From positions 1-32,994 of the forward strand of contig JADYYO010000183.1 of NCBI GenBank assembly GCA_020853615.1: a stretch of DNA of 32,994 nt. Reading direction: 5' to 3'. The translations under genes were made by a program, and so were the position numbers. This stretch comes from Thermomicrobiales bacterium. Its GTDB lineage: Bacteria; Chloroflexota; Chloroflexia; Thermomicrobiales; UBA6265. Shown here in pieces: positions 21,657 through 23,652 of this stretch. Below the pieces are notes generated by a model, which did not search any database, was not told where the DNA came from, and saw only the letters and a list, made by a program, of their open reading frames with translations. How positions within the stretch are numbered: the stretch's first letter is position 1; each line of letters begins with the position of its first letter.

Positions 21657-22043
21657 CTACCGCGACGCGGTGGTGAAGGGGAGCAGCGCCACGTGGCGGG
21701 CGCGCTTGATGGCGACCGTCAGGGAGCGCTGGTGCTTGGCGCAGGTGCCGAGCTTGCGGCGCGGCTCGATCTTACCGCGCTCGGAGATGTAGCGGCGCAG
21801 CCGCGGCGTGTCCTTGTAGTCGACCTCGCCGATCTTGTCGACGCAGAAGCCGCACACCTTGCGCCGGCCGCCGAAGCGGCCGCCGCCGCCCCGTCGCGGG
21901 CCGCGGCCACCGCCCGGCCCCCGGCCGCCGCCCGGCCGCGGCCCGCCCGGGCCGGCCGGCCGCTCGCCCTGGGCGCCGGCGCCAAACCGGCCGCGGGGCG
22001 CTTCGCCCTCGTTGGGCGCCTCTGTTCGTTCGCGATCGCTCAT
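21657..22043 (-). CDS. rpsR: 30S ribosomal protein S18 with Gly/Arg-rich N-terminal extension
   Basis: [62 protein letters not shown]. Confidence 0.93.
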
Positions 22044-22108: not shown

Positions 22109-22603
22109 TTAGAAAGGCGGCTCGCCACTGTCGTCGTCCCACGGGACCTCTTCGAGCCTGCGCGGCTCGTCGTTCTGCTCGTAGCGGCCCTGCGGCCGGC
22201 TGCTGCTGGCCGCGGCGCCCGCGCCGTAGCCGCCCCCGAAGCCGCCTTCGCTGTCGGCTCGGGAACCGAGGAGCAGCAATTCCGTCGCATTGACATCCAG
22301 GGAGGTTCGCGTTTGGCCCTGCTGGTCCTGATATTCTCGCGCCTCGAATCGGCCTTCGACGAAGACCTGCTTGCCCTTGGTCAGATAACCATTCTGGGCC
22401 ATGCGGTCCATTGTCTCGGCCAAACGACCCCACGCCGTGACACGGAACCAGTTGGTCCGCTCCTGTTGCTGGCCGGACTGATCGGTGAAGCGCCAACTCA
22501 CCGCCATGGTGAACTGCACATTCATCCTGCCATTCGGCGTGTACCGGGTCTCGGGATCGCGGCCCAGGTTGCCGACGAGGGTGATCTTCGCGATGCCGGC
22601 CAT
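22109..22603 (-). CDS. ssb: Single-stranded DNA-binding protein
   Basis: MAGIAKITLVGNLGRDPETRYTPNGRMNVQFTMAVSWRF...WFRVTAWGRLAETM; acidic tail WDDDSGEPPF; AAGGAG SD before 22603. Confidence 0.95.
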   Translation of the reverse strand: MAGIAKITLVGNLGRDPETRYTPNGRMNVQFTMAVSWRFTDQSGQQQERTNWFRVTAWGRLAETMDRMAQNGYLTKGKQVFVEGRFEAREYQDQQGQTRTSLDVNATELLLLGSRADSEGGFGGGYGAGAAASSSRPQGRYEQNDEPRRLEEVPWDDDSGEPPF

Positions 22604-22641
22604 CGTGGTCTCCTTCGCTGCGCGAGCGCCGGGGCGGCGGG

Positions 22642-23652
22642 CTACTCGCCCTCCGCCTGCGCGGCTTCGTACTTGGTCGGGCTGAACCCGGCGGCTTCCG
22701 CCGCCTCGACCGAGGCGAAGCAGAATTCCGGGATCGTGCGGTTGTACGATGGTGAGCCGGGGCTGTGGTAGAGCCGCGAGCTGGCGTTCCCCTTGACCGG
22801 GTAGTCGGGGGGGCACTCGTTGGTACCCGTGCCGGCGATCGCGCCCTCGGGCACCTCGGCCGTCGTCTCCGTCGTGCCCGCGGTCCCTGCGGCCTGCGCG
22901 GTCTCACCGCTCGCCTCGGCCTGGGCCCTGGCCACGGCGATCGCCGCCGCCCCTTCCAGCTCGGAGCGGGCCTCGATCGCCGACACCGGCTCGATCGCGT
23001 CGCCCGCGCCCGCCGTGTCGAGCGTCTCGAGCGCGACGTCGGCGCCGCTCGCCTCGACGGCTTCCGCTTCCCGGGTCAGCGCTTCGGCCTCGCTCGGCCG
23101 AGCGGCGATCCCCATCGCCGCGCCAGCGCCTTCGCCCTGCGGCGCTTCGGCGGGTTGGGCCGCGCCGGCAGGTTCTGCCTGCACTTCGGCGCCCGCTGCC
23201 GCCGCTGCACCGCCCGCCTGTTGCGTGGCGGCAGCGGCCTCGGCCTGCGCGGCAGCATACGCTGCGGCTGCGGCGTCCTCGGCCGCGATTTCGGCCGCCT
23301 CGATCTCCTTCGGCGTGAGCGGCTTCGGCTCCCAGGTGACGACGAGGTAGCGGATCACCTGCGTGTTGAGCTTCAGCTCGCGCTCCACCTCGGTGATCAG
23401 GTGCGGCGCGAGGTTGAAGTGCCAGACGGTGTAGTAGCCGTCGCGCACGTCCTTACCGCCCGAGCGAATCGGGTAGGCGAGGCGGCGGCGGCCCCAGGGC
23501 GAGTCACGCAGCGACTCGATCAACTCACCGCCGATGGTCGTGATATACGATTGAATGCGGTCGAGCTCCGCCGGCAACGACTCATCGGCCACCTCCGGGT
23601 GGAGAATGGTCATCAACTCGTACTTGCGGGGCGCGCGTTCCTGCTCGCGCAA
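22642..23652 (-). CDS. rpsF: 30S ribosomal protein S6 with long Ala-rich C-terminal extension and terminal YPVKGN-type module
   Basis: RKYELMTILHPEVADESLPAELDRIQSYITTIGGELIESLRDSPWGRRRLAYPIRSGGKDVRDGYYTVWHFNLAP...VIRYLVVTWE is S6; TTG start with AGGAAGGAGG SD; order rpsF-ssb-rpsR. Confidence 0.93.
   Translation of the reverse strand: MREQERAPRKYELMTILHPEVADESLPAELDRIQSYITTIGGELIESLRDSPWGRRRLAYPIRSGGKDVRDGYYTVWHFNLAPHLITEVERELKLNTQVIRYLVVTWEPKPLTPKEIEAAEIAAEDAAAAAYAAAQAEAAAATQQAGGAAAAAGAEVQAEPAGAAQPAEAPQGEGAGAAMGIAARPSEAEALTREAEAVEASGADVALETLDTAGAGDAIEPVSAIEARSELEGAAAIAVARAQAEASGETAQAAGTAGTTETTAEVPEGAIAGTGTNECPPDYPVKGNASSRLYHSPGSPSYNRTIPEFCFASVEAAEAAGFSPTKYEAAQAEGE

Follow-up and report, generated by a model that had tools for sequence, protein, structure and literature searches.

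We found that a ribosomal protein S6 ends in a sunset domain in the analyzed window (the whole 32,994-nucleotide stretch of contig JADYYO010000183.1 from a Thermomicrobiales bacterium of the Chloroflexota, genome G000). An uninterrupted open reading frame on the minus strand (23652-22642) encodes a 336-residue product of three parts, namely bS6, a 166-residue acidic Ala/Glu-rich linker and a C-terminal sunset domain (Table 1), an identity and architecture about which we have next to no doubt. The preliminary description, made from the letters alone, had read this frame as S6 fused through an Ala/Glu-rich linker to a C-terminal module that it named sunset, and it was right on the fusion, the linker and the name. 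The S6 models PF01250 (residues 10-105, E = 3.6e-22, 78.8 bits against a cut-off of 27) and TIGR00166 (2.8e-20, 72.3 bits against 42.9) match the protein, and its last 50 residues match the NCBIfam sunset model NF051437 (5.7e-19), covering positions 1-41 of the 42 in the model and scoring 67.9 bits where 27 is the cut-off; Pfam gave no family for the tail.

The frame opens with a TTG codon six bases downstream of the Shine-Dalgarno sequence AAGGAGG, which is also kept in a second genome of the genus (G003). The linker comprises 62 Ala and 24 Glu residues, and the tail holds two cysteines, Cys280 and Cys311. The GA-x-x-G-[DT]-G lead-in of the sunset cassette recurs ahead of other sunsets of the Cys-containing type. 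The genes rpsF, ssb and rpsR follow one another on one strand and are succeeded by a gene for a PPIC-type isomerase, with cysS lying upstream of rpsF. The N-terminal extension of the bS18 encoded by rpsR has a net charge of about +6, and similar extensions are found in relatives within the family; this basic extension and the strongly acidic S6 tail could pair electrostatically.

Table 1. Features of the rpsF-ssb-rpsR region, in coordinates of the window.
Feature	Position	Strand	Basis
bS6 domain, residues 1-112	23317..23652	-	PF01250, TIGR00166; Shine-Dalgarno sequence before TTG
Rapidly drifting Ala/Glu-rich linker (residues 113-278; net charge -23)	22819..23316	-	composition; dN/dS and gaps against G003
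Sunset cassette, residues 267-327 (VPEGAIAGTGTNECPPDYPVKGN...AGFSPTK)	22672..22854	-	NF051437; identity and dN/dS against G003
Curated sunset core, residues 286-326	22797-22675	-	NF051437
Nine-residue tail YEAAQAEGE and stop	22642..22671	-	translation
ssb, next gene after rpsF (ORF bounds; true start inside the ORF)	22109..22816	-	PF00436, 3.3e-31
rpsR, bS18 with Arg/Gly-rich N-terminal extension	21657..22043	-	PF01084, 3.8e-24; composition of the extension

The same fusion is present in G003 on an independently assembled contig, which excludes an assembly or frame artefact. In a pairwise comparison of this one genome pair, with the ratios taken from the dN and dS values, the S6 part is 75% identical (dN 0.16, dS 0.85, dN/dS ~0.19), the linker 53% identical with 32 gapped columns (dN 0.43, dS 1.00, dN/dS ~0.43) and the curated sunset core 78% identical (dN 0.125, dS 0.65), the sunset part giving a dN/dS of 0.16-0.19. 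Judged by these substitution rates, both the S6 and the sunset parts are under strong purifying selection, with the sunset constrained about as much as S6, while the linker between them drifts; the tail of the S6-sunset protein looks both translated and selected. The assemblies of the remaining two genomes of the genus yielded no S6 match.

Across the class, S6 is present in 150 of 160 genomes and the sunset domain in 60. When the class-wide lists of their positions were compared, G000, G003 and G159 were the only genomes to have S6 and sunset in one frame among the matches listed; a further sunset carrier whose S6 placement fell outside the listed matches (G058) bears its sunset on a different protein. 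Related genomes contain the proposed fusion in two cases, and among the matches listed S6 is unfused elsewhere in the class. G159 represents a different genus of the family; its frame was inspected directly, and ssb and the S18 gene come after it. S6 is unfused in the genus mates of G159 (G006, G024 and G158). Long acidic, Ala/Glu-rich C-terminal extensions are likewise present on most S6 proteins of the family but lack a sunset at their end, which suggests that the tether preceded the domain and that the sunset joined it later.

The preliminary description also held that the sunset module occurs on unrelated proteins; its hosts in the present analysis include translation proteins, membrane proteins, nucleases and PntA. 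Trigger factor carries a C-terminal sunset in seven genomes of the S6-sunset family (G004, G009, G010, G018, G024, G156 and G158; loci L009, L021, L033, L098, L099, L100 and L101) and is without one in other genomes of the same family. S1 of G023 and L15 of G010 also end in a sunset (L104 and L103), the trigger-factor, S1 and L15 cases all being in sister genera. PntA, a subunit of NAD(P) transhydrogenase, has a sunset tail in two genera (G001 and G158; L075 and L097), once with the cysteine pair and once without it. In family f7, six genomes that belong to a single genus (G084-G089; L085-L090) have an S16 with a sunset at its end; these genomes are 99-100% complete and the S16 copy is the sole sunset detected in them. 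G024, which is 98% complete, similarly has a single detected sunset, that on its trigger factor. Many further copies belong to proteins that are membrane-anchored or of low complexity, while other parts of the phylum have the domain on lipoprotein-like proteins and nucleases (SNase, Exo_endo_phos). A sunset-like domain also ends an Exo_endo_phos nuclease of a Pseudomonas conjugative plasmid (L083:2038-3144, plus strand), and a Tsukamurella plasmid record contains an L17-sunset case; phage records gave no sunset match at E 1e-3.

Several observations bear on how these copies arose. Over 263 bases the trigger-factor and L15 cassettes of G010 share 88% DNA identity, against ~74% between the trigger-factor cassettes of different species, which shows that the cassette moves within genomes. 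The S6 sunsets of G000 and G003 have both cysteines; that of G159 has neither and groups with the trigger-factor, S1 and PntA sunsets of its family. On an alignment of 31 hand-chosen rows and 50 columns, AU tests reject monophyly of the three S6 sunsets with p = 0.0004, of the two PntA sunsets with p = 0.006 and of the seven trigger-factor sunsets with p = 6e-7. This points to more than one sunset lineage behind each of S6, trigger factor and PntA in a single family, a signal that would equally come from gene conversion between copies. A larger tree, built from 84 sunset rows, has poor resolution. The additions to different ribosome-associated proteins are apparently independent. A mutual exclusion of S6-sunset and trigger-factor-sunset was considered and rejected: no genome has both, yet with 2 and 7 carriers among the ~24 genomes scored for both, a hypergeometric estimate gives this outcome about half of the time by chance.

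Profile comparison relates the sunset domain to the Ada zinc-binding domain, whose zinc cysteines it lacks. When the sunset profile is aligned by hhalign to a profile of 18 Ada domains taken from related genomes, the result is a probability of 96% and a score of 42.3 over 41 columns, against 8.9 for the reversed profile, 10.2 for an S6 control and at most 15.5 in 60 column shuffles. The Ada metal-binding domain (PF02805; 1adn, 1u8b, 1wpk, 1zgw) has the same F-x(n)-A-x-AGFR ending as the sunset, but the positions aligned with its four zinc cysteines, one of which is the methyl acceptor, are not Cys in the sunset. Direct matches to PF02805 are sub-threshold: a sunset borne by a nuclease matches at 4e-4, the best sunset score is 20.7 bits against a gathering cut-off of 23, and no PF02805 match was reported for the S6-sunset protein. 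In a profile search of the PDB, Ada chains rank shortly behind C. acnes uL4 and are interspersed with PHD finger protein 7, at non-significant E-values of 0.7-1.4. A fold model predicted from one sequence was of low quality (pLDDT 61) and gave no significant match in Foldseek. Sunsets on widely differing hosts all conserve residues such as the KGN motif, the H, the T and the AGF/AGY turn. Among 87 sunset domains, which are related rather than independent sequences, both cysteines are present in 61 and neither in 22, the other 4 being mixed; since the two are gained and lost together, this suggests a Cys-Cys contact, perhaps a disulfide, that is dispensable to the domain.

To our knowledge, ribosomal proteins rarely gain whole new domains, and the presence of one small domain on many ribosome-associated proteins points to a shared benefit at the ribosome surface. 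S6 pairs with S18. It sits on the 30S platform beside S18 and the 3′ end of the 16S rRNA, and in F. johnsoniae S6 and S18 adjoin the anti-Shine-Dalgarno pocket (PMC9976891). Because the location of S6 is known, its C-terminus can be predicted to present a folded sunset at the solvent side of the 30S platform by means of a long, acidic and flexible tether, which would keep the domain close to the mRNA exit side. We tentatively favor the view that the sunset is a small, position-independent docking or self-association module tethered at the ribosome surface. What would matter is placement on that surface at high copy number and not S6 itself, with different lineages hanging the domain on different ribosome-associated proteins; its occurrence at many ribosomal positions makes a role tied to S6 unlikely. 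We infer that it binds either itself or a partner, the latter being something other than another sunset protein: the S16-sunset genomes and G024 have one detected sunset each, and the partner therefore need not be a second sunset protein. A contact between two ribosomes through their sunsets is possible. It speaks against docking that the membrane, lipoprotein-like, nuclease and PntA hosts allow for a role that does not concern ribosomes, and that most S6 tails of the family are without a sunset, such that the tail alone is tolerated and the domain dispensable. A wider proposal, to which we lend slightly less credence, is that of a mobile ribosome-display module: a zinc-free Ada descendant that bacteria would have added, repeatedly and each time independently, to exposed ends of no fewer than nine translation proteins (S1, S2, S6, S16, L4, L15, L17, L20 and trigger factor), enabling ribosomes to bind a common partner or each other. 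The sunset is short and C-terminal, and it is missing in sister species.

The main rival to docking, unlikely in our estimation, is that the sunset merely caps the tail passively: needing no partner, its compact fold would seal a long low-complexity stretch and shield it against aggregation or C-terminal proteases. The wide variety of hosts would fit such a cap, as would the position of the last sunset, for 57 of 72 host frames have it no more than 20 residues from their C-terminus, usually behind a low-complexity linker; however, sister species retain long uncapped tails on the same proteins, and the shared conservation of KGN, H, T and AGF/AGY seems to exceed what a pure cap needs. We consider it improbable that the sunset is a nucleic-acid-binding module holding mRNA near the 30S mRNA exit. 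The kinship to Ada, the occurrence on SNase and Exo_endo_phos nucleases and on S1, and the proximity of S6/S18 to the anti-Shine-Dalgarno pocket noted above would all suit that role, but the zinc and methyl-acceptor cysteines of Ada are absent, and the neutral-to-acidic character of the domain (mean net charge -1.6 on the ribosome-associated and PntA hosts, next to the -23 of the linker) disfavors simple RNA binding. Less probable again is a tethering of ribosomes, through sunset-sunset contacts, to sunset proteins anchored in the membrane of the same cell: G000 and several relatives do have sunset proteins in which a membrane segment is apparent by eye, but given the genomes with a single detected sunset (the six S16-sunset genomes and G024) membrane tethering cannot be the general role, though ribosomes may yet contact one another homotypically. 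The metal-binding (C...H...C) site suggested in the preliminary description found no support and is very improbable, for although this S6-sunset copy has two Cys and one His, 22 of the 87 domains, including the S6 sunset of G159, have neither Cys, and the zinc ligands of Ada are not retained.

A sunset domain carried by a ribosomal protein is not peculiar to S6. The NCBIfam sunset variants of L4 (NF051449), L17 (NF051448), L20 (NF051450) and S2 (NF051451) combine a ribosomal domain, a low-complexity linker and a C-terminal sunset, as in the present protein. They differ from it in the host, which is S6 here, and no model for an S6 sunset variant is among the NCBIfam hits: the S6-sunset protein scores 61.5 bits with the L17 model, 56.5 with L20, 54.2 with L4 and 38.5 with S2, far below their cut-offs of 280, 375, 385 and 710, the tail alone being aligned. 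Literature searches returned no relevant paper using the words "sunset domain" and no report of an S6 fusion, and we know of no partner, phenotype or structure for sunset domains. A further counterpart is uL4 of C. acnes (PDB 8crx chain e), which also bears an extension on a ribosomal protein and whose last residues match the S6 sunset (phmmer, 2.3e-8); unlike the G000 domain, it belongs to the 50S instead of the 30S subunit and lacks both cysteines. In the relevant passages of its published account, this extension is described as solvent exposed, devoid of EM density and probably disordered, and the sunset domain is not named (PMC10085706). Such a lack of density is as expected for a tethered domain, and by analogy with uL4 the S6 sunset may likewise be exposed and flexible. 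To the sunset variants already known on L4, L17, L20 and S2, the present analysis adds those on S6, trigger factor, S1, L15 and S16.
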